DNA of 64,000 nucleotides from Planctomycetota bacterium (GTDB taxonomy: Bacteria > Planctomycetota > Phycisphaerae > UBA1845 > PWPN01): the NCBI GenBank assembly GCA_022711465.1, contig JAKLEZ010000015.1, positions 1 through 64,000 of the forward strand, read 5' to 3'. Position numbers and translations under genes: made by a program. This document shows, piece by piece, positions 37,650 through 61,257 of this stretch; the first letter of the stretch is position 1, and each line of letters starts with the position of its first letter. The notes under the pieces are model-generated. The model saw only the letters and a program-made list of their open reading frames with translations. It had not been told where the DNA came from and made no database searches.

Positions 37650-38642
37650 TCAGTCCAGGTAACCCAGCTCCGTCAGCACCGCCACTTGATCGAGAGTCAG
37701 CAGCAGCAGGAGGTCCTTCTCCGCCTCCTCGAACTCAATCCGAGCCTTGCGGCGGGCCTCGCGAACAGCCGCTACCTTCTCCTCGATCTGCTCCGCGGTC
37801 GACTTCGAGTCCGCCAGCACCGCCTGCAGTTCGAACAAGGCCTGCATCACCACCATGTTGCGCCCACCGAAACCCGGAGGTCCGCCACCCGGCGGCCCGC
37901 CCGGTCCACCACCCCCAGGACCACCACCCGGGCCAAACCGACCAAAGCCACGAGCACCACGACCGCCGAACGCCGGTTGGCTTGCGGCTCCGGGCCGTGT
38001 TGCCGCCGCATCACCCCGACCTCGCTCATCCGGCGGGCCAAAACCCCCCGGGCCGCGACCGCCCGGAGCGAGGCCAGCCGGAGACCCAAAACCATCCGGC
38101 GGACCAAAACCACCCGGAGGCCCGAAACCGCCGGGCCCCGGACCTCCCGGTCCAAAACCCCCAGGACCACGACCGCCAGGCCCACGGCCCCCGGGACCAC
38201 CAGGACCCCCCGGACCGAACCCTCCAGGACCCTGGAAGCTGCTGTCGTCACCGAAACCCGGCCCGCCCGGTGGACCAAAGCCGCCACCACCCCGCCCCCC
38301 TCGGCCCATCGGGCCGCCCAACAGGCCACTGTTCTCGTCCGGGCCGGCCGGCATCAGCATCGCTTCCGTCGCCTGCCGAGCTGACATCACCCGCCGCAAC
38401 TTGGGACCAATCACTTTCCACTCCTCGTCCGAAGCCCGTAGCCGCGTCTTGATCTCTCCAAACGCCGTCATCTCCCCGAAGCCGGGGAAAAAGGGCAAGA
38501 AACCACCCCCAAACGGCCCGCGATCGGGCGTGGGCTGCGACGCCGGCACCCCCGCGTTACTCCGCGGCGCTTGAGCGACGCCAACGATCGGGACACCCAG
38601 CGCCAGGACGATACCTAAAGACCCTGTGATGCTCTTAAACAC
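37650..38642 (-). CDS. Gly/Pro-rich secreted protein, paralogue of the protein at 39421
   Basis: A GTG at 38642 with an AGAGGG ribosome site gives 330 residues and puts a clean signal peptide at the N terminus (SLGIVLALGVPIVGVAQA). A short domain contains LRASDEEWKVIGPKLRRVM. About 170 residues of GFGPPGG-type low complexity follow, then a C-terminal helical pair (AEQIEEKVAAVREARRKARI). The SDEEWKV..PK motif and the C-terminal helix also occur in the paralogue. The layout recalls periplasmic stress chaperones of the CpxP/Spy type, but the LTxxQ motif is absent, so this is only an analogy. A candidate operator lies 98 bp upstream. Confidence 0.7.
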   Translation of the reverse strand: MFKSITGSLGIVLALGVPIVGVAQAPRSNAGVPASQPTPDRGPFGGGFLPFFPGFGEMTAFGEIKTRLRASDEEWKVIGPKLRRVMSARQATEAMLMPAGPDENSGLLGGPMGRGGRGGGGFGPPGGPGFGDDSSFQGPGGFGPGGPGGPGGRGPGGRGPGGFGPGGPGPGGFGPPGGFGPPDGFGSPAGLAPGGRGPGGFGPPDERGRGDAAATRPGAASQPAFGGRGARGFGRFGPGGGPGGGGPGGPPGGGPPGFGGRNMVVMQALFELQAVLADSKSTAEQIEEKVAAVREARRKARIEFEEAEKDLLLLLTLDQVAVLTELGYLD

Positions 38643-38739
38643 AGCTCGGCCCTCTCTGCAGGCTCTCCCGCCCGTCACCCTCATCTCCGAAATCACGCGG
38701 GCGGATCCGATCCTGACATGACTCAACATAGCCGGGTGA

Positions 38740-38757
38740 ACCTTAACGTCACGTGAA
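38740..38757 (-). promoter_or_regulatory. Candidate response-regulator operator (site A)
   Basis: On the minus strand the site reads TTCAC-N6-TTAAGGT. TTCACG and TTAAGG are offset by 11 bp, the spacing of OmpR-family direct-repeat sites. It overlaps the stop codon of the sigma-factor gene and lies about 100 bp before the Gly/Pro-rich protein start at 38642. The same motif occurs at 48170 and, with two changes, at 40187. Confidence 0.6.
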
Positions 38758-39324
38758 GACAGGCTGTCGACCGGCGGGAAGATCCCCTAAAGTGGCCAGC
38801 ACCCGCTTCGATAACGCCTCCCGGGCTTCACGAAGACGGGCCTCCACGGTCGCCTGCGGAACCTCCAGGGTGCAGGCCATCTCCTGGTACGTCATCCCTG
38901 CCAGCTCCCGGAGAACGATGACGATGCGATGCTCCATCGCCAGGTCGCGAAGGACCGCCGACAAACCGGGCCGAGGCTCGGCGACAACTGTCCCGGCACA
39001 TTCCGCGGCTTGACCCCCGGGTACACGGGCCACCCCCTTCGCCAGACCGGTTGAAGGTACGCAACGGGATACAGCCGGGCGAGTCTGGCACGCCTCGCGC
39101 ACCAATGCAGCCAGTAGCGATGTCCGAACCGAAACCCCCGGGCGGAAACCGCCTTCCAGGTAACGGGCCAGCGCCCCCTCCACCAGCTCCTCGGCATCCG
39201 CGGCATCGACGGCCAGCGCCCGGGCGATGCCAAACAGATAGTCGGCGTGAAACTCGATCAGAGCGAGAATCGTCGCTCGCCCGCCTCGACCAAGCATGCG
39301 CGTTGTGTCGGTCCAGTCAGTCAT
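38749..39324 (-). CDS. Sigma-70 family RNA polymerase sigma factor (ECF-like)
   Basis: From the ATG at 39324 the protein has 191 residues. The region-2-like part (LIEFHADYLFGIARALAVDAADAEELVEGAL) and region-4 helix-turn-helix (MTYQEMACTLEVPQATVEARLREAREAL) are separated by a Gly/Ala/Pro linker. No anti-sigma gene is adjacent. It sits between the two paralogous Gly/Pro-rich secreted protein genes, so a role in the same envelope response is likely. Confidence 0.8.
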   Translation of the reverse strand: MTDWTDTTRMLGRGGRATILALIEFHADYLFGIARALAVDAADAEELVEGALARYLEGGFRPGVSVRTSLLAALVREACQTRPAVSRCVPSTGLAKGVARVPGGQAAECAGTVVAEPRPGLSAVLRDLAMEHRIVIVLRELAGMTYQEMACTLEVPQATVEARLREAREALSKRVLATLGDLPAGRQPVFT

Positions 39325-39420
39325 CAACCCATCTCGCAGGACAAGCGGCGCGCACCCCACACTTCCCAAGCCGCGCTTCGGAACACGGCTCGCCTTCAAC
39401 CCATCCCGCCGAGCGTCGAG

Positions 39421-40011
39421 TTACTCCAGAACACCCATCAGCACGAGAGAGGCTTCCTGACGCTGCGTCACAAGCTCCTTCAGGCTCTTCTGAGCGGCTT
39501 GTACTTCCGTGCGCGCCTTCTCGCGGGCCTCGCGATAGGCGGCCAGCTTGCCGGCAATGTCCGTCGCGCTGGCATCCTTCTTCTCCAGCAGCGCCCGCAG
39601 GTCCGTCTGAGCCTGGGCCACCTTGCTAAGCTGCTGGTTGCCCATGCCACCAGGTCCACCGGGCCCCCCACCAGGCCCGCCGGGGCCGCCGCCAGGACGG
39701 CGACCGAAACCCATCATCCCAAAACCACTGAAAGACTCTCGCTGGGCCGTCTGAACCTTCTCAATCTTGGGATACAACACTTTCCACTCATCGTCGCTGG
39801 CCCCCAGCTGATCCTGCATCATCTTCGACATTCGCTCACGCCACTGCGCAGGGTCAAAACCCCCGAAAGGCGGCGGCTGACCCTGACCTGGAGCGGCTCC
39901 CGCACCACCACCAGGACCGGGGCCGCCTCGCCCGGAATCCTGGGCCAGAGCCAGCGAAAAAACCATCAACGCACCCACCGGAATCGCGAGCCACCACTTT
40001 CGATTCGACAT
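39421..40011 (-). CDS. Gly/Pro-rich secreted protein, paralogue of the protein at 37650
   Basis: The ATG at 40011 has the strong ribosome site AAAGGAGAAG; the protein has 196 residues. It comprises a signal peptide (KWWLAIPVGALMVFSLALAQ), a Gly/Pro-rich segment, a helical block MMQDQLGASDDEWKVLYPK, another Gly-rich stretch and a charged C-terminal coiled coil (LAAYREAREKARTEVQAAQ). It has the same architecture as its larger paralogue. It could be a periplasmic binding partner or accessory sensor for the histidine kinase encoded just upstream; that is inference. Confidence 0.7.
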   Translation of the reverse strand: MSNRKWWLAIPVGALMVFSLALAQDSGRGGPGPGGGAGAAPGQGQPPPFGGFDPAQWRERMSKMMQDQLGASDDEWKVLYPKIEKVQTAQRESFSGFGMMGFGRRPGGGPGGPGGGPGGPGGMGNQQLSKVAQAQTDLRALLEKKDASATDIAGKLAAYREAREKARTEVQAAQKSLKELVTQRQEASLVLMGVLE

Positions 40012-40186
40012 CGGCCTTCTCCTTTCGTGATCGGGCGAACCACGGCACTCATCGAACGCCACGCGAGCCGCCGCCCTCTCACCAATACCAGCCTGGCAGC
40101 CGACCAGGCCAACCGCCCCGCAACTACCCCTTCGCCATCGGCAACCAGGGCAACATCGGACATCGCTCCCCAGCTTACCAAACCCC

Positions 40187-40204
40187 ACCTGAAGACAAGA
40201 TGAA
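40187..40204 (-). promoter_or_regulatory. Candidate response-regulator operator (site B, variant)
   Basis: On the minus strand the site reads TTCAT-N6-TTCAGGT, differing at two positions from sites A and C. It lies 176 bp before the Gly/Pro-rich protein gene at 40011, in the 228-bp gap after the histidine-kinase gene. Confidence 0.45.
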
Positions 40205-40239: not shown

Positions 40240-41913
40240 CTACCCACACGCCGACGGACCGTTTTCCGTCGGAAGAGAGTCCGCAGGACATCCGCCATCC
40301 GCCCCCCCCCGGGGCAGCCTAACCAGGAAAACCGCTCCCTTGCCCGCCTCACTGCAAAAGGTGATCGTCCCCCCGTGAGCCTCGGCAATGCTCTTGCAGA
40401 TCGCCAGGCCCAGACCGCTGCCCCCCTCCTCCCGGTTGCGGGCCGCATCCACCCGGTAAAACCGCTCGAACAGGTGTGGCTGGCTCTCCGCCGGAATGCC
40501 CACCCCCGTATCCGTGACGCTGAGCAACGCATCACTGCCACTGGCACCAACGTGGACTTGCACCCGCCCCCCCTCGCGGTTGTAGCGAATCGCGTTCGTC
40601 AGCAGATTGGTCGCTACCTGGGCAACCCGGGTCCCATCCGCGAGCAGCGTCACAGACTCCAGATCCGATTCAACCGTCACTCCCTTCTTGGCAGCCAGGG
40701 GAGACACCATCTCGACACACTCCGCAACGAGATCGCGAAGGTCCAACTCGGTACGGTTGAGCGAGAGCCGGCCGGCATCCGCCCGGGCCAACAGAAGCAG
40801 CGAGTCCACCAGGTTCTTCATCCGGTCGGAGGCCCTCAGGCACGTCTCGAACATCCGCCGATACTCCTCCGCCGATCGCTGCCGCGACAAGGCCAACTGG
40901 GCATGCGTGTGAATGACCGCCAGGGGAGTACGCAACTCGTGCGATGCGTCCGCAGTGAACCGAACCTGCTGCTGGAACGCCGCTTCCAGGCGAGCGAAGG
41001 TGTCATTCAGTACCGCCGCCAGCGTCCCCAGCTCGCTCTGGGTCCCGGCCAGATCGATCCGCCTGGACAAATTCGAGGCCGAGATCTCCTGAGCCACCGC
41101 CGTGATCGCTTCGATCGGCCGCACCGCGCGCAAGGATACGAGCCACCCGCCCGCCAGCCCGATCACCAGTACGCCGGCTCCAACCGCGACCAGCAGAAAC
41201 GCCAGGCGGTGCAGGGCCGCTTGATCCGGGCGCATCGAACGCCCAACCAGGCCGCGCAAACCAAATGGCCCATAAACGTAAGCCTCGCGCACCTCACCTC
41301 GCTGACGTATCTGCGGCGGCCCCGGCTTCGGAGGACTCGACAACGTCGATCCGGGATCAGGAACCTCCCCGGCGTTCGCCGAGGACTTGAGCACACGACC
41401 ATCGAAACCCCAGATCACGTAGTACAGCTCGCCTGTCGCCGCCCGTCGATCTAGTTCCACGGGCGCTTCGAACTCCAGCCAGGGCGGAAACGACCGCTCC
41501 CGGGCATGCGGCCCGTCCGGCGGCCGGCCCACCGGTCGCTCCAACGGGCCCGGACCACGCCAGTCAGGCGGCTCCGGCCTCGGCCCGGTGTCACCCTCCG
41601 GCCAGGTCGGACGCGGATCCATCGGAGGGACTCCGGGGGGTCCTTCGCCAGTTGGTCGTCCCGGCATTTTCGGCCGGAGACCCACCACCAAGCCCTGCAC
41701 CGATCGCTCCAAATCGGTGTCCACCTCCTGGTACCGCATCCGACTGATGCCCACGTACGACATCGAGCCAAACGCCGTCAGCACTACCGCGAGCAGACCA
41801 GCATGCCACAGTTGCAGCGTCCAGCGAATCGACTTGAAGCCAGCACCAGAAGACCGCTGACCGCGCGGTGCGGCGAGCGAGCACCCCGGATCTGGCGAGA
41901 GGCTCTCAGCCAT
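40240..41913 (-). CDS. Membrane sensor histidine kinase
   Basis: The 557-residue protein has TM1 at about 35-57, a periplasmic sensor region (about 60-235), TM2 at about 237-260 and a HAMP domain (LRAVRPIEAITAVAQ). The kinase core has DASHELRTPLAVI (His325), NLLTNAIRYN, DTGVGI and GGSGLGLAI. The periplasmic region carries an unusual Pro/Gly-rich insert at about 82-137 resembling the low-complexity parts of the neighbouring secreted proteins. The gene overlaps the response-regulator stop by eight bases, so the two form a cognate pair. Confidence 0.9.
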   Translation of the reverse strand: MAESLSPDPGCSLAAPRGQRSSGAGFKSIRWTLQLWHAGLLAVVLTAFGSMSYVGISRMRYQEVDTDLERSVQGLVVGLRPKMPGRPTGEGPPGVPPMDPRPTWPEGDTGPRPEPPDWRGPGPLERPVGRPPDGPHARERSFPPWLEFEAPVELDRRAATGELYYVIWGFDGRVLKSSANAGEVPDPGSTLSSPPKPGPPQIRQRGEVREAYVYGPFGLRGLVGRSMRPDQAALHRLAFLLVAVGAGVLVIGLAGGWLVSLRAVRPIEAITAVAQEISASNLSRRIDLAGTQSELGTLAAVLNDTFARLEAAFQQQVRFTADASHELRTPLAVIHTHAQLALSRQRSAEEYRRMFETCLRASDRMKNLVDSLLLLARADAGRLSLNRTELDLRDLVAECVEMVSPLAAKKGVTVESDLESVTLLADGTRVAQVATNLLTNAIRYNREGGRVQVHVGASGSDALLSVTDTGVGIPAESQPHLFERFYRVDAARNREEGGSGLGLAICKSIAEAHGGTITFCSEAGKGAVFLVRLPRGGADGGCPADSLPTENGPSACG

Positions 41914-42559
41914 GGACTTGGTACCCCTCGCCGCGCCGAGTCATGATGAAATCCTTGCCCAGCTTCTTCCGGACGTTGGCGACGTGAACGTCCACCAGGT
42001 TCGACAGGCTGTCGTCGGCCTCGTCGAACAGATGATCGTAGATCATCGTCCGGGTCACCAGTCTGCCTTTGTGCAGGGCAAGCAACTCGACAAGGGCATA
42101 CTCTCTCGGCGTGAGCGCAACCGGCTGCCCCGCCTTGCGCACGGTACGCTCAGCCGTGTCAATTTCGACGTCGTCCACCTCCAGAGTGGCCTTGGTCTGA
42201 CCCGCGGATCGGCGAATCAGGGCCCGCAGCCGAGCCTGCAGCTCCGGCAACTCGAACGGCTTGGTCAGGTAATCATCAGCCCCGGCATCGAGACCCTTGA
42301 CTCGATCGGGAATCGTATCGCGGGCGGTCAGAATGAGAACCGGCGTTGCCTTCGTCTTCCTCAGCTCACGGAGCAGATCCCACCCGCTCATGCCCGGCAA
42401 CATCAGATCCAGAACGACAGCATCGTAGTCCGCACCCGCCGCCTTGTACAATCCGGTCGGCCCATCGGACGCCTCGTCCACCGCATATCCGGCCTCGCGG
42501 AGCGATTGAGCCAACACCTCCAGCAGATCCGGCTCGTCCTCAATCACCAGGAGCCTCAT
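41906..42559 (-). CDS. OmpR/PhoB-family response regulator
   Basis: From the ATG at 42559 (GAGGGG ribosome site) the protein has 217 residues. The receiver has the acidic pair EDE near residue 8, phosphoacceptor Asp51 (VVLDLMLPG) and LTKPFE near 101. A C-terminal winged helix follows (ALTPREYALVELLALHKG, then LVDVHVANVRKKLG, ending TRRGEGYQVHG). OmpR-family proteins bind as dimers to direct repeats 11 bp apart; three such candidate sites are in this cluster. It lies 75 bp after the PEP-synthase/DUF106 fusion gene. Confidence 0.92.
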   Translation of the reverse strand: MRLLVIEDEPDLLEVLAQSLREAGYAVDEASDGPTGLYKAAGADYDAVVLDLMLPGMSGWDLLRELRKTKATPVLILTARDTIPDRVKGLDAGADDYLTKPFELPELQARLRALIRRSAGQTKATLEVDDVEIDTAERTVRKAGQPVALTPREYALVELLALHKGRLVTRTMIYDHLFDEADDSLSNLVDVHVANVRKKLGKDFIMTRRGEGYQVHG

Positions 42560-42634
42560 CGGGCACCCCTCAACAGCATCATCCGCATCCGTTCGCACAC
42601 CAGTGTACCGCCTCAAGGCCGCCATGACTCGCCA

Positions 42635-45600
42635 TCACGCGACTTTCATCACCGCCCGAGCCGTCAGCAACGTCGGCAGATAGACGATGATGTACAACCA
42701 CAGCCAACCAACGTCGACCGCCGCCAGCCTCCCGACAACCGGCCGACTGCCCTCACCCGCCACGGCCGCATCCGGCGACAGAGACCCAAACGCCGCAAAA
42801 GGCCGCCAGAAACAAGGCGCCTGCTTGGGCCGCGGGTAGACCACACGCAGCTCCCGCACCGGCGAGCCCCGGTCACCCGTCACCAGCGAGGGAGCGGGGG
42901 CACACCTGTCGCCAACCACCGCCTGGATCGTCACCGGACGATGACCCCCGGTCGCCACCGTCACCGGGAATCGACCGTCCAGGTCCGCCGGCGGGCGAAT
43001 TATCCAGGTCATGCCTCGCGGCGGCAGACCCGCCTCGAGATAGGCCTGCAGGTCCTTGGCCGCCTGCTCACGCGTCAGATCCGGACCCACCTTCAGTTCC
43101 CACGCCTCCCTAGACTCCTCCTGCGGCTGGCGGTACAGGCTCAGCAGTCGCTCCAACGTCTTGCGCAGCGGCGGCAGCATCCGTGTCGACGGCGTGCTGT
43201 CGTCCACCTGGATCGCCGGCGGCGTCTCGATCCGAACCGGATCCAGCCAGTCCCCGTCGACCAGCGCAACGACCTGTACCGGCGAGCCCGCTGGCGCATT
43301 GCCGGCCGCCGGATCCACGCGATCCTTGAACCAGACGAAGGGCATGACCATCGGCCCCAGCAAGACGCCCACCGGAACCAGCGCGGCCATCAGCGTGCGG
43401 TACTGGACACCCGCCGCCAGCCGGGTCAGTGTTCGGCGCCTCGGCGAGCCCTCCGGCAGACCGTCAGCCTGAATCCTCAGCACCGCGGCTCGACGCTTGG
43501 CCTCCAAAAGACGTCTATTGTCGGTGAGATACTTCTGGATCAGGAGCGTCAGCAACGCCAGGCCCACAGCAACCACCACCACGACCCCAGGCTTGCCCAA
43601 AAACCGGACAATCGGCCACAGCACCCAATCCATGGCCGCCAGCGATGGCTGATGAACCCAGGACTCGGGCAGAAGGAAAAAACCGAGCAGAAAGACCGTC
43701 CACGCGAGGGCCAGGACGTTTCGCATCCTCGCCGCCCTGCGATCCTTCCGGCCAAACGGCGGCGGAACCGCGTCCCGCGAGACGCATACGTCGTCGGGGC
43801 CGGGCAACCCTCGATCAGCCCCCCCCGAACCACCCAACACATCACAGGTCGCCGACGCCGACACCCCACACGGCGCCTCTCCCTCGCGGACAACCCGCCC
43901 GCGGCGACCGTCCACGCGAAGCACCTCACCCTCCGCAAACAACCGCGCGGCATCAGGCAGGACGACGGCCGGCAAACCCATCTCCCGAGCCACCACCGCC
44001 CCGTGCGACAAGGTGCCGCCACGTTCCAGCACCAGTCCCGCGGCGTTGACGAACAGCGGCGTCCAGGACGGATCCGTGCTCGGGCAAACCAGGACGTAGC
44101 CGCGACCGAGATCCGACCTCTCCGCGGGCGACTGGAGAATCCTCGCCGGCCCCACGGCCTCGCCCGACGAAATCCCCAAGGCCTGGTAGCTGCCAGTGTG
44201 AGCCTCCTCCACCCCCGTCTCGCCCAGCACCTCGATCATCGCTCCCTCGATCACCCGCGGCAGGTCGATCCGGATCTCGGCCTCGTAATCCGCCTTCCGT
44301 TGATCGATCACTTGACGCGGAGCGGATCCGGCACGCAGCCCGTCGAAGAGCTCCTCCCGTGTCAGGTAGAAGACCTCCTCGCCGACATTCAGCCGTCGCC
44401 CGGCCTCGAGAGCCAGGTCACGCAGCAGATCGTAACCCAGCATCAGGAAGTCCTTGCTGTCCTCACGAAAGGCCATGTACCGGCGGACGAGATCCAAACG
44501 ACGATCAAACTCCCTGCGATCGCGGCCCGACAGCCGGGCACGGAGTGACTCGACCCGGCAACCCACCTCCCCAACGGTGCGATCGTGTCGATCCAGCGGT
44601 CCGACGCCGGCGGCCAGGCGGGCCGCCAGATCGCTGACCGCCGCCGGCTGCTCTCGCCGGCGCGGAGCCGCCAGATCGAATTCGCCCACCGCTCGATGAC
44701 CGTGATCGGCCATCCACCTCTCCAGTGGGCGGGAACCCTTCCCCACTTCATACAACTCGACGTCAGTGGTCAGCGTCCGGTTCAGCGCACCACCGGCCGA
44801 GATGAACCCGGCCAGATCATCGGCGTCTTCTTCCCAGAAGCACTCCTGGAGAAACTCCCGAAGCTCCGCCATGGCCATCTCGCAGATCAGGCTCGGCATC
44901 AGCGAGTGCGGACCGAACGTATCCAGCACCTGCCTCTCGTGCTCCTGCCATAGACCAATCAGACGATCGGCGGAGACCAGCCGCAAGTCGATCTGCTTGG
45001 CCAGATCGACGTAGCACGCCAGACGCGGACACAGGTTGCGGCAGAGCCGGCGATCAAAATCCGCGGACAGGGCATGCAGATTCCTCTGCACCGCCGCCAG
45101 GCGCCGCCGGGCAACCATACGCGATGAGAACGAGCCTCGCGGCAGGGTCGGCGGCGTCTGCGACGCATCCGGGCTTCGGCGGAGCACTTCCAGGTCGTAT
45201 GCGAAAGGAAACCCCTCAAAAAACATCTCCGGGGCACGCGATACGTCCATGTATACCCGACCGGCGATGAGTTCCAGAAACCCCTCGCGATCGACGACCG
45301 GCGAAGGCCGAAAACCCGCCTGCCGGTACATGGCACCGAAACCGCCGGATCCGGACATGAATCGCCGAATGACGCTCCAGGTCAACGGCGTCGGATGGGG
45401 CAACGTCTCGGCCAGATTGTGCAGCACCCACGGACCACGCCCCGCCGACAGCTCATTGTTCAGCCGCTGACGCACCGCCATCAGCACGGCTTCATCCCCC
45501 TCCGCAGCCCGCAGCGTCGTGATCGGGCGGGCCTGCAGCAGATACAGCTCGCCCCCATGGATCGCCCATTCCATATCCTGGGGCGAGCCGAGATGCTCGG

Positions 45601-46366
45601 CCAGACGCCTGCCCAATCGCCAGAGCCGCTGAATATCCCGCCCACTCAGGCAGGCCGTCTTGCGCCGGGCCTCGTCGACCGGCTGCTCCCCCCGCCCCCC
45701 GGCGGAAAGGTACACCTGCTTGTCCGAAATCGTCGCGGCCAGAACACGTCCCGATTCATACTCCAGCCGGAGAACATCCGGCTGAACCCGCCCGGAAACA
45801 ACCGACTCGCCCAGCCCCCAGCTCGCCTCAACCAGCATCTCGCGGCGGCCGTCACCGTGGGGATTGGCGGTGAAAAGCACCCCCGCCGCATCCGCGGGAA
45901 TCAGACGCTGAACGATGATCGCCATCGACACGTGCACAGGATCAATTCCCTGCTCGCAGAGATAGGCCCGAACCCGGGGAGTATCCAGGCTCGCCCAGCA
46001 TTCCCGCACCGCCTTGAGCACCTCAGCCTCGCCCTCCACGTTCAGGAAGGTCTCATACTGCCCGGCCATGGAGGCGGTCGGCGTATCCTCCGCCGTGGCC
46101 GACGATCGAACCGCCACCGCCCCGCCACCCATCGCTCGATACCCCAGTCGAATCTCCTCCGCGACCTCGTCCGGCAACCCGCCCGGCACGCCCACCGCAA
46201 ACGATCGACCTCTGGCACGTTCGAACGCCCGAGTGTTGATGACGAACCCGCCGGGAACCGGGAATCCCGCTCGGACAAGCCGACCGAGACTGGCCGCCTT
46301 GCCTCCCACCTGCGACGCGTCGCGGCATTCGGACAAATCCTGAGTGTAGGCCGATACCCGGTTCAT
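42635..46366 (-). CDS. Fusion of PEP-synthase/Rph-like phosphotransferase with a DUF106 (EMC3/TMCO1/YidC-like) membrane module
   Basis: This is one continuous frame of 1243 residues. Residues 1-290 are a PPDK/PEP-synthase ATP-grasp domain (VGGKAASLGRLVRAGFPVP, VRSSATAEDTPTASMAGQYE, LLQARPITT). The middle carries an Rph-like LAETLPHPTPLTWSV. Residues about 750-830 are the swivelling phosphohistidine domain with GGTLSHGAVVARE (His near 787). After a linker, residues about 880-1243 form a membrane module: two hydrophobic segments, a basic coiled coil (LTDNRRLLEAKRRAAVLR), LVPVGVLLGPMVMPFVWF, a soluble insert of roughly 150 residues, and GWLWLYIIVYLPTLLTARAVM. That topology fits DUF106/EMC3-type insertases. 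The start overlaps the upstream PQQ gene by four bases. Confidence 0.8.
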   Translation of the reverse strand: MNRVSAYTQDLSECRDASQVGGKAASLGRLVRAGFPVPGGFVINTRAFERARGRSFAVGVPGGLPDEVAEEIRLGYRAMGGGAVAVRSSATAEDTPTASMAGQYETFLNVEGEAEVLKAVRECWASLDTPRVRAYLCEQGIDPVHVSMAIIVQRLIPADAAGVLFTANPHGDGRREMLVEASWGLGESVVSGRVQPDVLRLEYESGRVLAATISDKQVYLSAGGRGEQPVDEARRKTACLSGRDIQRLWRLGRRLAEHLGSPQDMEWAIHGGELYLLQARPITTLRAAEGDEAVLMAVRQRLNNELSAGRGPWVLHNLAETLPHPTPLTWSVIRRFMSGSGGFGAMYRQAGFRPSPVVDREGFLELIAGRVYMDVSRAPEMFFEGFPFAYDLEVLRRSPDASQTPPTLPRGSFSSRMVARRRLAAVQRNLHALSADFDRRLCRNLCPRLACYVDLAKQIDLRLVSADRLIGLWQEHERQVLDTFGPHSLMPSLICEMAMAELREFLQECFWEEDADDLAGFISAGGALNRTLTTDVELYEVGKGSRPLERWMADHGHRAVGEFDLAAPRRREQPAAVSDLAARLAAGVGPLDRHDRTVGEVGCRVESLRARLSGRDRREFDRRLDLVRRYMAFREDSKDFLMLGYDLLRDLALEAGRRLNVGEEVFYLTREELFDGLRAGSAPRQVIDQRKADYEAEIRIDLPRVIEGAMIEVLGETGVEEAHTGSYQALGISSGEAVGPARILQSPAERSDLGRGYVLVCPSTDPSWTPLFVNAAGLVLERGGTLSHGAVVAREMGLPAVVLPDAARLFAEGEVLRVDGRRGRVVREGEAPCGVSASATCDVLGGSGGADRGLPGPDDVCVSRDAVPPPFGRKDRRAARMRNVLALAWTVFLLGFFLLPESWVHQPSLAAMDWVLWPIVRFLGKPGVVVVVAVGLALLTLLIQKYLTDNRRLLEAKRRAAVLRIQADGLPEGSPRRRTLTRLAAGVQYRTLMAALVPVGVLLGPMVMPFVWFKDRVDPAAGNAPAGSPVQVVALVDGDWLDPVRIETPPAIQVDDSTPSTRMLPPLRKTLERLLSLYRQPQEESREAWELKVGPDLTREQAAKDLQAYLEAGLPPRGMTWIIRPPADLDGRFPVTVATGGHRPVTIQAVVGDRCAPAPSLVTGDRGSPVRELRVVYPRPKQAPCFWRPFAAFGSLSPDAAVAGEGSRPVVGRLAAVDVGWLWLYIIVYLPTLLTARAVMKVA

Positions 46367-48027
46367 TCATTGCCCTCCGAGCCAACCAGGCAATGCAGCC
46401 CCCCCGTTTCGCTTCCCGCAACCACCCGCCCTCCGCAAACCTGCGGCAAGCACATCGCCAGGCCGGTACCCGGTCTGGCCTGGTCGTTCAGGTAGACTCT
46501 CTCCACAACCCGGCCATCCCTGGAATCCAGAACCGCCAGGTAACCGTCGCTGCTCACCGCGTAAACCCGCTGCCCGGTGAACGCGCACCCCGCAATCACC
46601 GGGGCCTGACTGCTGATCGCCGCACGCCATAGAACCCGACCGTCCTTCAGCGACAGCGCGGCCACCTCGCCTGTACGGACCGGACACACCAGCCGGTCCT
46701 CGCGACACGCAGACCCACCCAGTACCGAGTCCTCAAACAACGTCTGCCAGCGAATCCGGCCCGTCTTGCGGTCCAGGGCGACCACCATGCCCTGCGCATT
46801 CCGGTTCGAATGAACCGCGTCGCTGTTGCCTCCGCCCGCAATCACCAGGTCACCGGCCAGGGCAATCGCGCTGACCACCGGATGAGCAACCGCCGTACGC
46901 CACAGAATCCGATCAAGCTCGCCAGCCCGCAACTGCTCCTCCGGCTCGCTACGCAGCGCCACCACGGCCGAACCGTTGAATCCGCTCCCGATGTACACCG
47001 TGCCGTTCTCATCAATCGCCGGCGCGCTCTCGGGATCGTTGACCGCTTGACGCCACAGCTCTCTGCCGTCGGAGATACGCACCGCCAGCACAAAACCAGG
47101 GTCGCCCGTGGCCTTGCCGTCCCGACCCTCGATCGCCCCGGCTCCCACCACGGCCATATCACCATGAATCGCAGGAGACGACTCGATGTGAAGCCCGGTC
47201 TTCACTTCCCAGTGCAGCTTCCCGGTCGCCGCCTCAAAGCAGAGCAGCGAGCACTCGCGGTCCGCGTGCAGACCCTGCCCGATCACCAGGTACTTGCCAT
47301 CCTGAGTCAATGCCGGCGAACTGAAGAACGGCCGCAGCACGTCATCGCCCTTCTGCGTCACCTCCCAGATCGGCTTGCCAGTCTCGGCGTCCAGGCACGC
47401 GAGCAGACCGGTGTACCCGCCCAAGTCGCTCTGGCACCCGGCGGCAAAGACCCGATTGCCGGCCACCAGGGGCCCGGAAAGAAACATCGTCTCCTCCGGC
47501 ACATAACGCCAGAACGTGCTCAGCCGCACGGGCGACGGACCCGTCCCGTAGCTGCATCGCGAGGCATCACGCCCCAGAATCAGAGGACCACCTGCACTCC
47601 CATGGCTCGGCAGGGAAACGGAACCCGCCGGGGAGCCGCCCCCTCCTTGCCCAGCCCCGGTCGCTTGGCCTGGAGCCGCCGTCGGCAACCCGGCTGGCGC
47701 CCGAGCCGTGAGCACCCCGGCGGCACGCTCCCTGGCGATGATGTCCTCCGCAACACGGGCCCAGTCATGATGCGCCGCCGCCCGAGCTTCCCCCCGCCCC
47801 GATGTCGCCGCCCGCGTGTCAGACGTCCGCCACCAGGTGGCGGCCACCACGCCCAGCGCAATCACACCCAACGACACCCCGACCGCAGCCGGCCGCCTCC
47901 GACAGAGCCGCAGCAGCTCACGCGGCCTGACCGCAAGAGCCACCACACTGGTCACCGCCGCAACGACCGCAGGCAAGACCGCAGCACCAGCACTCATGAA
48001 AATCGGAACGACCGCCAGGGTTCCCAT
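46363..48027 (-). CDS. Membrane-anchored PQQ-like beta-propeller protein
   Basis: The 554-residue protein has two or three N-terminal hydrophobic segments (to about residue 66), an Ala/Gly-rich linker and a C-terminal propeller. The propeller blades show repeats such as LLACLDAETGKPIWEV, SLLCFEAATGKLHWEV and MVVALDRKTGRIRWQT. Such WD-like quinoprotein folds often serve as scaffolds (as in BamB) rather than enzymes. It is translationally coupled to the PEP-synthase/DUF106 fusion and is the first gene of the cluster, behind candidate operator site C. Confidence 0.82.
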   Translation of the reverse strand: MGTLAVVPIFMSAGAAVLPAVVAAVTSVVALAVRPRELLRLCRRRPAAVGVSLGVIALGVVAATWWRTSDTRAATSGRGEARAAAHHDWARVAEDIIARERAAGVLTARAPAGLPTAAPGQATGAGQGGGGSPAGSVSLPSHGSAGGPLILGRDASRCSYGTGPSPVRLSTFWRYVPEETMFLSGPLVAGNRVFAAGCQSDLGGYTGLLACLDAETGKPIWEVTQKGDDVLRPFFSSPALTQDGKYLVIGQGLHADRECSLLCFEAATGKLHWEVKTGLHIESSPAIHGDMAVVGAGAIEGRDGKATGDPGFVLAVRISDGRELWRQAVNDPESAPAIDENGTVYIGSGFNGSAVVALRSEPEEQLRAGELDRILWRTAVAHPVVSAIALAGDLVIAGGGNSDAVHSNRNAQGMVVALDRKTGRIRWQTLFEDSVLGGSACREDRLVCPVRTGEVAALSLKDGRVLWRAAISSQAPVIAGCAFTGQRVYAVSSDGYLAVLDSRDGRVVERVYLNDQARPGTGLAMCLPQVCGGRVVAGSETGGLHCLVGSEGNE

Positions 48028-48290: not shown

Positions 48291-49922
48291 CTACTCCTTG
48301 TCCAGCTTCCGGTAGTTCCAGTCCAGGATGTCCAGCCGCTTGAGATCCTGAGCCAGGCGGACCAGAAACGCGGTGTAGTCCTTCCGCTCAGCCGGTGACC
48401 ATAACACCTCCGACATGGCCGCCGCCCGCGGAAAGGCCATGTACTCAACCTGCCGCGTGGTCGGCAGATACTCCGCCCACAGCTGGCACTGGGCCCCGAG
48501 AATGTGCTTGGCCTCCTCCGGCTTCATCTCCTTCGGAATCGGCTCGTACTCGTACACCTTCTTCAGCGGAAGGTTGCCTCCGATGGCCAGCGGTTCCTTT
48601 TCTGGAGGACCCTGGTAGTAGTCGAAGTAGGTCCACCCCGTCGGGGCCATGACCACGTCGTGCCCCTCCTTGGCCGCGGCGATGCCCCCTCGCTCCCCTC
48701 GCCAGGACATGACCACGGCGCCGGGAGCCAGACCACCCTCGAGAATCTCGTCCCACCCGATGAGCCGCCGCCCTTTCTGGGCGAGAAACGTGTCCATCTG
48801 CTTGATGAACCAGCTCTGCATCTGGTCCTCGTCCTTCAGGCCAAGCTCCTTGATGCGGGCCTGCACCACCGGGCTTGCCTTCCACTGCTCCTTCGTCGCC
48901 TCGTCGCCGCCAATGTGAATGATCTTGCTCGGGAACAGCGCCAGAACCTCAGTCAGCACGTCCTGCACAAACCCGATCGTCTTGTCCGTCGGAATGTAAA
49001 TGTCCGGGCAGACCCCCCAGACCGTCCACGGCTTCAGCGGCTGGTCCGGGTGGCAGCCCAACTCCGGATACGCAGCGATCGCCGCCCGGGCGTGACCCGG
49101 CATCTCGATCTCCGGAACCACGTTGATGTGCCGGTCGGCCGCATAGCCCACAATCTCCCGGAGGTCGTCCTGCGTGTAAAAGCCACCGTGCGGGCGGCCG
49201 TCAAACTTCCACGGCTTCTTGCCGGCATGCCCGACAACCGTCTCGTCACGCCAGGCCCCGACTTCGGTCAGCTTCGGGTACTTCTTGATCTCGATCCGCC
49301 AGCCCTGATCGTCGGTCAGGTGAAGCTGCAGACTGTTGAACTTGTGCAGGGCCAGAACGTCGATGAGCTTGAGCACAAACGTCTTCGGCATGAAGTGCCG
49401 CGAGGTGTCGAGCATCAGGCCACGCCAACCGAACCGCGGATAGTCGGTGATCGACACGCAAGGCACCACCCAGCTCGCCCCCACCACCGGAGCCTGCCGG
49501 AAGACCGCCGGGGGCAACATCTGAAGCAGCGACTGGATCCCGTAGAACAGACCCGCCGGCTTGGGCCCGGTGATCAGAACGCGATTCACCGCCACATCCA
49601 GCTGATAGCCCTCGTCGCCAAGCTGCCGGAGCGATTCGTCGATCCGCAACACGATCGCGCCGTCCCGAGGTTCGCCACCGTCGGCGAGCTGCAGACGACA
49701 ACCCATCGCTGGGGCAAGCCCGTCCACCAGTTTGCGGGCTTCGGCCACCGCAGGACCGCTCGCCACCACCACCGTCCCGGAGGTGATCGTGAATCCACCC
49801 GAACCCGCCTTCATCTCCACCGGTATCGGAACAAGCATCGTCGTCCCTCCGCCCAATTGGTTTCCCGAATCAGTGGCCGCACCCACGCACACCAGAAACG
49901 AGACCAACATCGCTTGGCACAT
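48291..49922 (-). CDS. GH20 beta-N-acetylhexosaminidase, exported
   Basis: The 543-residue protein starts at the ATG at 49922 (GGGAGA ribosome site) with a short signal peptide. An N-terminal GH20b-type domain is followed by the GH20 barrel. Signatures are RGLMLDTSRHFMPK, LHLTDDQGWRIEIK, EIEMPGHARAAI and the catalytic Asp-Glu pair in HIGGDEATKEQW. It should cleave terminal GlcNAc or GalNAc from chitin-like, mucin-type or peptidoglycan-derived glycans. It is a single gene beside the envelope cluster. Confidence 0.92.
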   Translation of the reverse strand: MCQAMLVSFLVCVGAATDSGNQLGGGTTMLVPIPVEMKAGSGGFTITSGTVVVASGPAVAEARKLVDGLAPAMGCRLQLADGGEPRDGAIVLRIDESLRQLGDEGYQLDVAVNRVLITGPKPAGLFYGIQSLLQMLPPAVFRQAPVVGASWVVPCVSITDYPRFGWRGLMLDTSRHFMPKTFVLKLIDVLALHKFNSLQLHLTDDQGWRIEIKKYPKLTEVGAWRDETVVGHAGKKPWKFDGRPHGGFYTQDDLREIVGYAADRHINVVPEIEMPGHARAAIAAYPELGCHPDQPLKPWTVWGVCPDIYIPTDKTIGFVQDVLTEVLALFPSKIIHIGGDEATKEQWKASPVVQARIKELGLKDEDQMQSWFIKQMDTFLAQKGRRLIGWDEILEGGLAPGAVVMSWRGERGGIAAAKEGHDVVMAPTGWTYFDYYQGPPEKEPLAIGGNLPLKKVYEYEPIPKEMKPEEAKHILGAQCQLWAEYLPTTRQVEYMAFPRAAAMSEVLWSPAERKDYTAFLVRLAQDLKRLDILDWNYRKLDKE

Positions 49923-50378
49923 CACCAGTCTCCCTGCAGCTAAGGCCCTCGAGAGCGAACGGCTCCCACTGAATCGCAGACGGCCCTATCGTATCCCCAG
50001 ATCGTTCAAGATCCACCCCCTTCACCCACCGCCGCCGAGCGCCGGCGCTGGAGCACCTCCGCGATGGCAGGTAACATACCCTGCACCGGAAAAGACGCAC
50101 CCCCTGCATCCGGTTTCCGGGACGCGTGGAATGCCCGCTCGCCGCCATGTGCCCAACAGCATCTGCTGACTGAAACCGACGCCCATGCCGTTCCGCGGCG
50201 GTCCGGAACCACCCACCACCAGGCACCCCCCTCCCGGCCGAGCCACGCCCGTCCCAGGGCCGAGACAGAACGCCGCTTGTCGCCACCGGACACCGCTCCA
50301 CCTCGAAAACGAGGTCGCCGGATAACACCACGTCGGTTATGCTGGAGATACCTTGTGCTTCGAGCCACGGAGACGCTT
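49923..50378. other. Region between divergent GH20 and PQQ-propeller genes
   Basis: About 456 bases containing two divergent promoters that I cannot pinpoint. The open frames here lack coding character, and no hairpin or remnant is apparent. Confidence 0.4.
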
Positions 50379-51899
50379 ATGAACGCAACAGGCAGTCGAT
50401 CGGCACTCTGGCTCTGTGTTCTGGGTTCAGCCATCGTCACCGCGGCCGCTCTGGCCGCCGATCAGCCCCAGTGGGGTGAGCGATTCTCCCGCAGCATGAT
50501 CTCCCATGAGAAAAACCTGCCCGACGCGTTCGATCTCAAGACCGACCGCAATGTCAAATGGTCGGCCGCGCTCGGCACGGAAACCAACTCCAGCCCGGTG
50601 GTCGCGGGCGGCAGAGTCTTCATCGGCACCAACAACGCCAAGCCGCGCGATCCCCAGCATCAGGGCGATTGCGGCGTGGTCCTGTGCCTCGACGAGGGCG
50701 ACGGGCGGCTGGTGTGGCAGCTCGTCGTGCCCAAGAAGGGTCCCAACCCATTCATGGACTGGCCTAACACCGGCATGGTCTCGCCGGTCACCGTCGAAGA
50801 CCGCCGCGTCTATCTGGTCTCCAACCGCAACGAGGTCATGTGCCTCGACCTGGACGGCATGGCCAACGGCAACGACGGACCCTACAAGGACGAAGGTCGA
50901 CACATGGCGGCGCCCGACGCCCCACCGGCCCCGGTCAATCCCACCGACGCCGACATCCTCTGGCTGTACGACATGGAGAAGCTGGGCGTCCACTCGCATG
51001 ACGCCGCCCACGCCTCCATCCTCGTATATGGCGATTGCCTCTATCTGTGTACCTCCAACGGCGTGGCCGACGATCACCTCAGCATCCCCTCGCCCGACGC
51101 GCCCAGCCTGGTCGTCTTCAACAAGGACACCGGCAAACTCGTGGCCCGCGACAACGAGCATATGGCCCCCCGAACCATCCACAACACCTGGTCCTCACCC
51201 TCCCTCGGCGAGGTCGACGGCCGGCCACTGATCTTCTTCGCCGGCGGTGATGGCATCGTGTACGCGTTCGAACCCGTCTCCTCGCCTCCGCCCGGCGACT
51301 CAGTCCACAACCTCAAACGCGTCTGGAGCTTCGACTGCGACCCGGCCGCCCCCAAGGAGGATGTCTTCAAGTACCAGGACAACCGCACCGAAAGCCCCAG
51401 CAACATCACCGGCATGCCCGTGTTCCACAACAACCGCGTTTACGTCGAGGCCGGCGGTGACTACTGGCATGGAAAGCCCCAGACCTGGCTGAAGTGCATC
51501 GACGCCACCGGGACCGGGGACATCACCCGCAGCGGCAAACTCTGGTCCTACCCCCTGAACCGCTTCTGCATGAGCACACCCTCCGTCATGGGCGATCTGG
51601 TCTTCATCGGCGACTGCGGACGCGAGGTCCACTGCGTCGATGCCCACACCGGCCGGCCTTACTGGACCCACCGCGTCCGCGGTGAAATCTGGGCCTCGCT
51701 GCTCGTCGCCGACGGCAAGGTCTACGCCGCCAGCCGCAGCGGCGAGCTCTCCATCCTCGCCGCCCAACGCGAAAAAAAGGTCATCCGAACCATCAACCTC
51801 GGCGGACCCGTCCACGCCACGCCCATCGCCGCCAACGGCACCCTCTACCTGGCCACCATGACCCGACTCTACGCCATCCAGCAGCCGCCGAACCCCTGA
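50379..51899 (+). CDS. Exported PQQ-like beta-propeller protein
   Basis: From the ATG at 50379 the protein has 506 residues, with a signal peptide (LWLCVLGSAIVTAAALAADQ). Propeller blades recur as WSAALGTETNSSPVVAGGRVFIGT, VVLCLDEGDGRLVWQL and REVHCVDAHTGRPYWTHR. The family in planctomycetes is large and mostly uncharacterised; true quinoprotein cofactor binding cannot be asserted. It reads towards the MacB permease gene and is monocistronic. Confidence 0.83.
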   Translation: MNATGSRSALWLCVLGSAIVTAAALAADQPQWGERFSRSMISHEKNLPDAFDLKTDRNVKWSAALGTETNSSPVVAGGRVFIGTNNAKPRDPQHQGDCGVVLCLDEGDGRLVWQLVVPKKGPNPFMDWPNTGMVSPVTVEDRRVYLVSNRNEVMCLDLDGMANGNDGPYKDEGRHMAAPDAPPAPVNPTDADILWLYDMEKLGVHSHDAAHASILVYGDCLYLCTSNGVADDHLSIPSPDAPSLVVFNKDTGKLVARDNEHMAPRTIHNTWSSPSLGEVDGRPLIFFAGGDGIVYAFEPVSSPPPGDSVHNLKRVWSFDCDPAAPKEDVFKYQDNRTESPSNITGMPVFHNNRVYVEAGGDYWHGKPQTWLKCIDATGTGDITRSGKLWSYPLNRFCMSTPSVMGDLVFIGDCGREVHCVDAHTGRPYWTHRVRGEIWASLLVADGKVYAASRSGELSILAAQREKKVIRTINLGGPVHATPIAANGTLYLATMTRLYAIQQPPNP

Positions 51900-51919: not shown

Positions 51920-53307
51920 CTATTCGTACCTCAACGCCTCAATCGGATCCAGCCGCGAGGCCTTCCACGCCGGGTAGTAACCGAAAATCACCCCCACGGT
52001 CACCGAGACCGCTACCGACGCCACAATCGCCCCAACCGACAGCTCCGTCGGCCACTGCATGAACGCCCGAACCAGCAGCGAACTGCCCCGGCCCAGCAGG
52101 ATCCCAATCACCCCGCCAAGCATGCACAAAACCACGGCCTCAACCAGAAACTGTCGGAGAATGTCCCGGGCCCTCGCCCCCACCGCCATCCGCAGGCCGA
52201 TCTCCCGGGTCCGCTCCGTCACCGAGACCATCATGATGTTCATGATGCCCACCCCACCCACAATCAACGAGATGAACGCCACGCACAACAACAGGTTGGT
52301 GATTCGACTGGTCGTCGAGGAAAACATCTTGGTCATCTCGGTCATGTCCCGGATGTTGAAATCGTCCAGCTCGCCCTCGCCGATCCGGTGACGCTCACGC
52401 AACAGCTGCGTGATCTGACGTATCGCCTGCTCCAGTTCGTTGGGCGACGCGGCCGCAACCATGATCTGATCCACGTTCGTGAATCGTACCAACGTGGGCG
52501 TGTTCGCCAGCTCGGTCTGCGACGGAACCGGATACAGGTTCTCCTTGCCGGGATACAGCTCGCTCAGCGTGTTGACCGAGCTCGAACCCGAAGAGCTCGC
52601 GGCACTCTGATTCACGCTGGCCAGGTTCGTGCCGGCCACACGACGCTTGATCGTCGTCCACGGGGCCAGCAGCACATCGTCCTGATCCATGCCCATGAGG
52701 TTCGCCCCCTTGGGGGCCAGCACCCCCACAACCTTGAAGGCCACATTCTGAACCCGGACTTCCTGCCCGATCGGCGACTGGCCCAGGAAAAGCTCGCGAA
52801 CCAACGTCTGGCCAAGCAGGCATACCTTGCTCGCGTTGCGCACATCCTGGTCCGTGAACGGCTCACCCTCGGCCAGGTTGCCCCAGTTGCGAACCTCAAG
52901 AAACGAGGGCGTCGTACCCCAGATGAACGTCGGCACCCAGTTCCGGTTACCGTAAATCACCTGTGTGCGCGCCCGTACCACCGGCGCCGTCGCCCTCACC
53001 GCCGGACACTCTCGAAAAATGGCATCCGCGTCTTCCGGCGTCAGGGTCATGACACTGCCGGCACCAAAGGTCACCCCCCCGCTCGCCGCCGACCCGGGAG
53101 CCACCAGCAGGTTGTCTACCCCCATGCTGGTGATCGACTTCTTGATGAACGACGAGGTGCCGTTGCCAATCTCCATCATCGCGATCACCGCAGATACGCC
53201 GATGATGATGCCCAGCGTCGTCAGGGCGCTGCGCATGACATTGCGCCGCAGGGCCCGAAAAGCCGTCCGCAGTATTCGGGCATGCAGTCGCGCCGACAGC
53301 CAGGCGG

Positions 53308-53311
<4 letters not shown>
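51920..53311 (-). CDS. MacB/FtsX-type ABC transporter permease
   Basis: The 463-residue protein has an N-terminal helix (TTLGIIIGVSAVIAMMEIGNG), a large MacB-PCD periplasmic domain (about 45-330) and three C-terminal helices of the FtsX domain (LLLCVAFISLIVGGVGIMNIMMVSVTERTREIG). The periplasmic domain has a Ser-rich insertion. The start overlaps the ATPase gene stop (ATGA). Together with the ATPase and the MacA-like protein it forms a tripartite efflux or lipoprotein-release pump. Confidence 0.9.
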
Positions 53312-54036
<725 letters not shown>

Positions 54037-54057
54037 GCTCTCCGATTTCCAACCTGC

Positions 54058-55425
54058 CTACTGCGGCCGACGCTGACTCCTGATCTGCGGCGTGAACGGA
54101 CTCCGGGTCCCGCCTCCGTCAATCTTGATGACTTCCCCGATCACGACCTCCATCCCTTCATTGAGCACACCCCCCGGCACTTCAGTCATCGATCCGTCGG
54201 TCAAACCGGTGTCAACCGCCACCGGGCGAACCAACAAACCATCTTGAACCCATACCGTACCCTTGTTCTGTGACCTCTTGACACCCGGAGGCCCTGAACC
54301 CGCCGGCTTCGATGAGACCGGCCTGGAAACCGCCCAACCCGAGGGTGAGGCCGCCATGCCCCGGCTGCCCATGCCGCCAGACTCCGCTCGAGCCTCCGGA
54401 ACAACCTGCTCCGGCGCGGGTACATACCGCAGGGCGGCGTTCGCCACCATCAACACATCTTTGCGGCGGGTCACTTCAAACTGCACATTGGCCGTCAGGT
54501 AAGGAAGCAGCCGACCGTTCGAGTTGTCGGTCGTGATCTCCACCGTATAGGTGACCACGTTCTGGGTCATGCTTGCATTCAGCCGGATCTTGCTGACCTC
54601 ACCGTGAAAAACCTCGCCCGGATGAGCATCAACCGTGAAGCTGACCGGCTGGCCAACCGTGATCCGCCCAATGTCCGCCTCGTTCACCGACGCCCAGACC
54701 TGCATCCGGGTCAGGTCCTTCGCAATCAGGAACAGACTCGGTGCGTTCAAACTGGCCACCACCGTCTGGCCAATGTTGACCCGCCGGGCAATGATGATCC
54801 CCTTGACCGGCGACTTGATCGTGCAGTAGCCGAGGTTGGTGCGAAAACGCCGCAGGCTCGCTTCCGACTGAAGCACCGCCTTCTGTGCCTGGACAATCGT
54901 GGCTTCGCCGACACCCACCGTGGCTTTGGCCGTCTCGTACGCGGCCTCGTAGGAATCGAAGTCCGTGGCCGACAGGGCCCGGGAAATGCCCAGCTCTTTG
55001 GCCCTGGTCCAGTTTTTCTCCGCCTGGTGAAGCTTGGCTTTCATCTGCTCGAGATCAGCCTGGGCCTTCAGCACACTGGCCTTGGCCTGCTCCAGCTGAG
55101 CCTCCGCCTGGGCCACATCGGCCGCATACAGCGAATCGTCAATGTGGGCCAGAACCGTGCCAACCTCCACCGGAGAACTGTAGTCCACCGTCTCGCCCCG
55201 GGGATCCTGGCCAAACATCTCGATCCTGCCCGCCACCTGGGCACCCACGTCAATGACCTCTTCCGGCTCCACCGTCCCGGTGGCGCTGATGCTCACCAGC
55301 AGATCGCCACGCTGAACTACGGCGGTGCGGTACGAAGGCGGTTCACCCTCCGAGTAATGCCAGTACGCATACCCTCCGCCCGCCGCTGCCGCCAAAACCA
55401 CAATGACGACCAGTAGTCCTCTCAT
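54058..55425 (-). CDS. MacA/HlyD-type periplasmic adaptor
   Basis: From the ATG at 55425 (GGGGAG ribosome site) the protein has 455 residues. It comprises an N-terminal anchor (LLVVIVVLAAAAGGGYAYW), split biotinyl-lipoyl halves (GTVEPEEVIDVGAQVAGRI and YCTIKSPVKGIIIARRVNIG), a central coiled-coil hairpin (AEAQLEQAKASVLKAQADLEQMKAKL), and a beta-barrel end with a Ser/Pro/Gly-rich insertion. It connects the ABC pump to an outer-membrane channel, which is not encoded nearby. Confidence 0.88.
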   Translation of the reverse strand: MRGLLVVIVVLAAAAGGGYAYWHYSEGEPPSYRTAVVQRGDLLVSISATGTVEPEEVIDVGAQVAGRIEMFGQDPRGETVDYSSPVEVGTVLAHIDDSLYAADVAQAEAQLEQAKASVLKAQADLEQMKAKLHQAEKNWTRAKELGISRALSATDFDSYEAAYETAKATVGVGEATIVQAQKAVLQSEASLRRFRTNLGYCTIKSPVKGIIIARRVNIGQTVVASLNAPSLFLIAKDLTRMQVWASVNEADIGRITVGQPVSFTVDAHPGEVFHGEVSKIRLNASMTQNVVTYTVEITTDNSNGRLLPYLTANVQFEVTRRKDVLMVANAALRYVPAPEQVVPEARAESGGMGSRGMAASPSGWAVSRPVSSKPAGSGPPGVKRSQNKGTVWVQDGLLVRPVAVDTGLTDGSMTEVPGGVLNEGMEVVIGEVIKIDGGGTRSPFTPQIRSQRRPQ

Positions 55426-55679
55426 GTCCAGTCTCCCCAGGAGTGCATCATCAGCGACGGCACTTGGGCTCGCCTCTCGCTTGCTCGCGACCCGCGGATG
55501 CAGCCCCGCACCGACAGGTCGATCCCTCGGGAGCGGCCGTCGCACCCGGACCTCAGAGTCTACCCGATCCGACGCTCCAGTGCGCTGCCGGCGGCATTGA
55601 CCCCAAAACCCAAATCCTGAACCATCCCCACTGTAACACCCCGACGCCGGCCGGCGTCCAACCGGTAGGAGAGTGCTCC

Positions 55680-56210
55680 GTGAACCAAGACGCACGATTC
55701 AAGGCCCTGATCGAAGCCCACCAGGACCGGATCTACCGCATCTGCTGCTGCTACATCCGCGACCAGCACGAGCGTCAGGATGCCTGTCAGGAGGTCTTGG
55801 TCCGCATCTGGCGAAGCCTGCCCGGCTTCGAGGGCCGATCCGACCTGAGCACGTGGATCCACCGCGTCACGGTCAACACCTGTCTCAGCCAGCTCCGCGC
55901 GGTCCAGCGCAGCAACCGCCTGATCGACAATCGGCCGCTGGATGATCCCGACATCCCTCCCCAAGCCGCACCTCCAGCCGATGCCGCCCTGGAAGACGAG
56001 GTCCGGCGTCTCCACGAGTGCATTCGCCGGCTTTCTCCACTCGAAAAAACACTCATCGCCCTCTACCTGGAAGATGTCGATGCCCGCGAAATGAGCGAAA
56101 TCCTCGGCATCTCCGAGGGCAATCTGCGCGTGCGACTGCACCGTACAAAACTGAAACTGAAGGACCTCTGGGAGTGCAACGATCATGAACCTCGACGGCA
56201 TCAAGGATAA
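55680..56210 (+). CDS. ECF-type RNA polymerase sigma factor
   Basis: A GTG at 55680 with TAGGAGAG upstream gives 176 residues. Region 2 reads DRIYRICCCYIRDQHERQDACQEVLVRIWRS (the acidic QDACQEV helix) and region 4 is DVDAREMSEILGISEGNLRVRLHRTKLKLK. Cys residues cluster in region 2 (RICCCY). The gene overlaps the next one by 26 bases, so the latter is a likely regulator of it. Confidence 0.88.
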   Translation: MNQDARFKALIEAHQDRIYRICCCYIRDQHERQDACQEVLVRIWRSLPGFEGRSDLSTWIHRVTVNTCLSQLRAVQRSNRLIDNRPLDDPDIPPQAAPPADAALEDEVRRLHECIRRLSPLEKTLIALYLEDVDAREMSEILGISEGNLRVRLHRTKLKLKDLWECNDHEPRRHQG

Positions 56211-60349: not shown

Positions 60350-60364
60350 GTCGGCTCCCCGTTA

Positions 60365-61237: not shown

Positions 61238-61257
61238 CCCTCACCACGCCCAATCGA

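Follow-up and report, generated by a model that had tools for sequence, protein, structure and literature searches.

A single gene, read from the minus strand at 42635..46366 of a 64,000-nucleotide stretch of Planctomycetota DNA (GenBank assembly GCA_022711465.1, contig JAKLEZ010000015.1; we call the whole stretch the window), joins a dikinase of the rifampin phosphotransferase (RPH) type to an EMC3/DUF106-type membrane module in one protein of 1243 amino acids (aa). Sequence and structural modeling establish the enzyme type, the catalytic residues, the homology of the module and the linkage to neighboring genes. With moderate confidence, we propose that the protein is an inner-membrane-tethered RPH-type dikinase working in a dedicated envelope complex. 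Both halves come from known families. We did not find their combination, its propeller partners or its spread in Planctomycetota and related phyla in the open-licence literature, and a search of mostly open-licence papers for DUF106 or EMC3 in Planctomycetes was empty.

The coding part of the fusion runs from 46366 down to 42638, followed by a stop codon at 42635-42637. The original prediction, made from the window alone, described one uninterrupted 1243-residue frame, and this is what we find, supported by full-length homologues. A congeneric genome carries an unbroken frame of identical length (1243 aa, 91% identity to the window protein), and over 20 loci in Planctomycetota, Verrucomicrobiota and Kiritimatiellota hold the fusion, each in a single frame. 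No frameshift is therefore indicated in the stretch 43720-43900, for which a check had been proposed. A contig scan returned ten relatives: seven align near end-to-end in one frame at 38–59% identity and come from metagenome-assembled genomes of the same three phyla, two are cut by contig ends, and one (L030) is without the membrane module. With whole-genome sampling, strong matches to the module profile occurred in 6 of 392 Planctomycetota genomes and in 6 of 289 genomes of the phylum of locus L024. The genome of the window holds a single copy of the module, and a plasmid search with it gave no match. Against the congener, the ratio of nonsynonymous to synonymous substitution rates (dN/dS) is about 0.25 for the whole fusion, with 0.20 for the membrane core, 0.51 for the linker and 0.47 for the periplasmic insert; the fusion, its membrane core included, is under purifying selection. 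Given the one-frame homologues, the low genome counts and these ratios, the fusion is real, selected and rare.

In the dikinase half, whose parts are all given here by minus-strand coordinates, Pfam positions and structure matching place the phosphohistidine domain C-terminal of an ATP-grasp and an acceptor domain. The ATP-grasp (PPDK_N) domain spans residues 1–292 (45491..46366), with a Pfam PF01326 match at residues 64–292 (E 3e-77) and a consistent residue check. The RPH-type acceptor-binding domain, residues 293–735 (44162..45490), was assigned by a model match to RPH-Lm (PDB 5fbt) and a residue check. The swivel domain, residues 736–835 (43862..44161), has a PEP-utilizers match (PF00391) at residues 755–823 (E 8.5e-21) and an invariant histidine, the catalytic H788. 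The ATP-grasp and swivel domains had both been predicted, and the motif then quoted for the latter, GGTLSHGAVVARE, lies at residues 783–795. A poorly conserved linker of variable sequence, residues 836–880 (43727..43861), is in frame in all homologues; it is the part for which the frameshift check had been proposed. Our model of residues 276–1243 (mean predicted local distance difference test score, pLDDT, 84.5) matches RPH-Lm with a Z of 32.7 over 471 residues, spanning the acceptor and swivel domains. The residues that act in the two half-reactions of RPH have been described (PMC4844700). For the first, K23, R87, T106 and H788 correspond to RPH Lys22, Arg117, Thr136 and His825; for the second, R634 and E635 correspond to Arg666 and Glu667, and K638 to Lys670. 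All are invariant in the complete fused and split dikinases, with the sole exception of a Thr-to-Ser change in L066, and on the strength of this invariance the protein is likely an active dikinase. It was originally called PEP-synthase/Rph-type (PEP, phosphoenolpyruvate). The second label is right, since domain order and acceptor-domain fold match RPH, and the first is not: the PEP synthase model TIGR01418 scores 287.9 bits against an equivalog cut-off of 739.75, and the His domain comes after the acceptor domain rather than being central.

The C-terminal third of the window protein has no Pfam match by itself. The single sequence scores no match to PF01956 (DUF106), and homology of the membrane module is seen with a family profile only. 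A profile made from fused modules alone matched the archaeal DUF106/YidC-like protein MJ0480 at E 9e-6; with split homologues included (profile A3), the match improved to E 2.2e-13, the next PDB sequence being at 0.06. Profile A3 aligns TM1-coiled coil-TM2 (TM, transmembrane helix) with MJ0480 residues 9–117, and a second alignment, weak alone, pairs the TM3 stretch with residues 150–197. PF01956 itself matches 12 of 27 family members (best 1.8e-9), and the split homologues L045 and L046 exceed its gathering score, a database threshold rather than a biological trait (39.7 and 35.8 bits vs. 27.1). By this profile evidence the module is a DUF106/EMC3/TMCO1-type homologue. The original prediction thus named the right family. 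Of the three domain searches it proposed, those for PPDK_N and PEP-utilizers succeed with the single sequence and that for DUF106 with the family profile.

An AlphaFold2 (AF2) model of the module has a mean pLDDT of 86.5, with about 90 for the folded part of the insert. Hydropathy and AF2 helices agree on a core of three TM helices with a coiled coil between the first two; its sidedness is predicted. TM1 (residues 926–947), the putatively cytosolic coiled coil (948–991) and TM2 (992–1016) form the DUF106 core at 43319..43591. They are followed by a predicted periplasmic insert, residues 1017–1218 (42713..43318), with helices and a beta-sandwich seen in AF2 strands and in Ig-like structure matches at Z 6–7, and by TM3 with a W-x3-Y motif whose W and Y are invariant, residues 1219–1240 (42647..42712). 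This is the TM-coiled coil-TM-insert-TM layout proposed before, which had, however, missed an additional N-terminal TM helix at residues about 882–899 (43670..43723), an AF2 helix of the fused form only. Structure comparison gave a more modest signal: in the VIA comparison 7tut_8 ranked first with a Z of 7.8, under 8 (144 residues, rmsd 4.1), and a Foldseek search with that C-terminal module found nothing significant, its best E being 0.71. The PDB entry 7tut contains TMCO1. As for the Oxa1-like fold that had been expected, the profile points to DUF106, and TMCO1 heads the structural ranking at a modest score, which is supportive though not decisive in view of the Foldseek value.

The two halves also exist as separate adjacent genes, at L054/L055, L064-L068, L093 and L094. 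Searching planctomycetes with PF01956 matched nine genomes; two of the matches (G079 and G299) are ordinary YidC, as read from their sequences, and each of the remaining seven lies next to an RPH-type gene, which for L068 rests on reading out-of-frame upstream sequence. In a tree of the dikinases, fused and split proteins form two clades with support of 100/99 each, the long outgroup branch leaving the direction between fused and split unset by the tree. Two separate genes, which would have spoken against the original prediction, are not what the window holds; the split state exists in a sister clade as a conserved operon, and this strengthens the functional link between the halves. By hydropathy, the extra N-terminal TM helix is present in 20 of 21 fused modules and in none of six split DUF106 proteins. 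Archaeal DUF106 proteins begin outside the cell, so a cytosolic enzyme joined ahead of such a module needs one more membrane crossing. The extra helix fits a real functional fusion of a cytosolic enzyme with the archaeal module topology.

Directly upstream, overlapping the fusion by a 4-base stop/start, lies a gene for a PQQ/BamB-type beta-propeller (46363..48027, minus strand; PF13360, E 1.4e-35) with two N-terminal hydrophobic segments. Among fused loci whose upstream DNA is available, a PQQ propeller gene holds this position in 22 of 22, counting the window, and most split loci also have one upstream. The original prediction had already noted the coupling to a membrane PQQ propeller. An FG-GAP propeller with a signal-peptide-like start occurs in the majority of fused and split loci, at variable positions. 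Kinship of the PQQ protein with EMC1 is not claimed: PF25293 scores 24 against a cut-off of 34 bits, and BamB/PQQ_2 is far stronger. A weak NCBIfam match to a 'PLuB' system (E 0.002-0.004, cut-off 250 bits) reflects generic PQQ repeats, and we found no paper on such a system; this assignment is rejected.

How might these parts work together? We suggest that the enzyme would be cytosolic, with the insert and propellers in the periplasm, all in one complex. Using ATP, with AMP and Pi as products, the ATP-grasp domain would phosphorylate H788. The swivel domain would ferry this phosphate to the acceptor site, and R634-E635 of the acceptor domain would help transfer it onto an acceptor hydroxyl. 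The DUF106 bundle, presumably open to the lipid, may hold or present a hydrophobic or membrane-bound acceptor, candidates being a lipid-linked glycan intermediate, a lipid or a membrane peptide. The original prediction had suggested that a membrane-embedded or exported substrate might be phosphorylated. Docking of the membrane-anchored PQQ propeller may fall to the periplasmic insert, as may that of the secreted FG-GAP propeller in most lineages. Several observations weigh against this proposal. No acceptor is known, and no conserved neighbor points to a pathway; no specific homologue of the FG-GAP partner was found in the genome of the window itself. In addition, a relative from a Verrucomicrobiota sample (L092:4469-6931) keeps the acceptor domain, the membrane module and the PQQ neighbor and is without the ATP-grasp domain, the swivel domain and the R-E pair. 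Unless the gene is decaying, at least this one lineage, which has lost the catalytic domains and kept the module, apparently has a use for its membrane part that involves no phosphotransfer.

The main rival is a phosphorylation-gated insertase or translocase, in which the DUF106 module would insert or export a client of its own, possibly the propeller or surface proteins of the FG-GAP kind, with the dikinase cycle driving or gating the process. It owes this rank to L092, where the membrane part is kept without catalysis, and to its eukaryotic relatives: the characterized family members EMC3, TMCO1 and GET1 act in membrane-protein insertion (PMC8887752, PMC8675477). A component of the multipass translocon, TMCO1, also heads the VIA ranking, and the partners are extracytoplasmic propellers. 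By analogy, such a machine might be a bacterial counterpart of EMC, in which EMC3 forms the core and EMC1 is a propeller subunit on the luminal side. Against it stand the RPH-type small-molecule acceptor domain with its second-half residues intact, and the fact that a DUF106 fold by itself is no proof of insertase activity. Moreover, we know of no insertase that uses a dikinase. Nor is the fusion the housekeeping insertase, since all 12 genomes checked also have an ordinary YidC. We give the gated insertase a small but real chance. Its fuller form, an EMC-like bacterial machine in which an EMC3-type insertase works with extracytoplasmic propellers and a phosphohistidine dikinase of the same protein drives or gates the work, we hold to be rather unlikely; if true, dikinase chemistry would for the first time be tied to an insertase, and bacteria would have an insertase of the EMC3 type.

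It is unlikely that the protein is instead a dikinase for a soluble small molecule, serving, as RPH, RedH and PigC do, to inactivate drugs or to ligate secondary metabolites, with DUF106 as a mere anchor. The highest-scoring NCBIfam models are indeed PRK06241-type, RPH and RedH/PigC enzymes. However, the rifamycin-inactivating phosphotransferase model NF041857 scores 383.5 bits, well under its equivalog cut-off of 999, and the RedH/PigC model 315 against 1350. As all named NCBIfam equivalog scores fall far under their cut-offs, the acceptor is not predictable from them and rifamycin is not implied. If the membrane part were a mere anchor, one would also not expect to meet DUF106 in every case, in split and fused forms alike, together with conservation of its core and a PQQ propeller as partner, and the loci have no conserved biosynthetic cluster in their surroundings.

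A role in sensing or regulation, with periplasmic propellers that would recognize a ligand, possibly a glycan, and a phosphohistidine domain that would relay the signal to a two-component pair, is very unlikely. About 10 bp downstream of the fusion in the window are genes for an OmpR-type response regulator (41906..42625, minus strand; Pfam) and its paired sensor histidine kinase (40240..41913, minus strand; Pfam), in the same order in L063. Glycan-related genes recur near the loci as well (GH20, GH123, pectate-lyase-like and melibiase), among them the gene for a GH20 beta-hexosaminidase (48291-49925, minus strand), which sits immediately upstream of the PQQ propeller gene and is kept in the congener. 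Yet the response regulator/histidine kinase pair, a possible regulator, is conserved in the congener only and not seen outside the genus of the window, and the set of carbohydrate genes varies by locus. Finally, an assembly or frameshift artefact joining two separate genes is rejected as having a negligible chance: a two-gene arrangement does occur in the sister clade, but the single open frame recurs in the congener and in the many loci of several phyla, one of them within a 1.28-Mb contig, and the extra TM of the fused form is in no split protein.

Other features were recorded around these loci. A recurrent secreted protein of about 480–550 aa, its core without a Pfam match, is found at about nine loci; examples at L024:9716-11185, L088:517-2178 and L060:3940-5511 look G8/beta-helix-like by eye. 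In the window, a second PQQ/BamB-type propeller protein (50064-51899, plus strand) is divergent from the GH20 gene. Further along are a MacB-type permease by Pfam, with an ABC ATPase and MacA-like adaptor by eye (51920-55695, minus strand), and a MlaD/MlaF/MlaE-like lipid transport cluster, also by eye (59021-62115, minus strand). On the other side, at 37650-40188 (minus strand), two Gly/Pro-rich, probably secreted proteins flank an ECF-type sigma factor gene (38749-39399). PADLOC gave no matches to a defence system, and Rfam no match within the window.

The EMC3/DUF106 branch of the Oxa1 superfamily has been treated, in the papers we consulted, as archaeal and eukaryotic (PMC8887752, PMC8675477). 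Here, an EMC3/DUF106-type protein is bacterial and a conserved partner of an ATP-dependent phosphotransferase, instead of a housekeeping insertase. Either the fold may serve to present membrane substrates to a kinase, or protein insertion may be coupled to phosphohistidine chemistry; the split forms, the fused forms and the degenerate L092 are a natural set for telling which part does what.

Among known systems, the RedH/PigC prodigiosin ligases and PEP synthase have ATP-grasp and phosphohistidine domains in common with the fusion, and to our knowledge they are without a DUF106 module. In PEP synthase the His domain is central (PMC4844700), whereas in the fusion it follows the acceptor domain. 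RPH-Lm (PDB 5fbt, 5hv1; PMC4844700) is closer, sharing the domain order, the acceptor and swivel fold and seven key residues. The acceptor-domain sequence of the fusion has mostly diverged, however, and the enzyme is followed by a membrane module; on this evidence the fusion is not a rifamycin-resistance enzyme. YidC/Oxa1 (PF02096) belongs to the same superfamily as the module (PMC8887752), which differs in being of the archaeal/eukaryotic three-TM form, next to the separate ordinary YidC of the genomes checked. With MJ0480 (PDB 5c8j) and EMC3/TMCO1 (PF01956) the module has TM1, a cytosolic coiled coil, TM2 and TM3 in common. In contrast to these proteins, it is bacterial, carries about 200 residues between TM2 and TM3 that are predicted to lie in the periplasm, has an extra N-terminal TM helix in the fused form, and is linked to a dikinase gene wherever we saw it.

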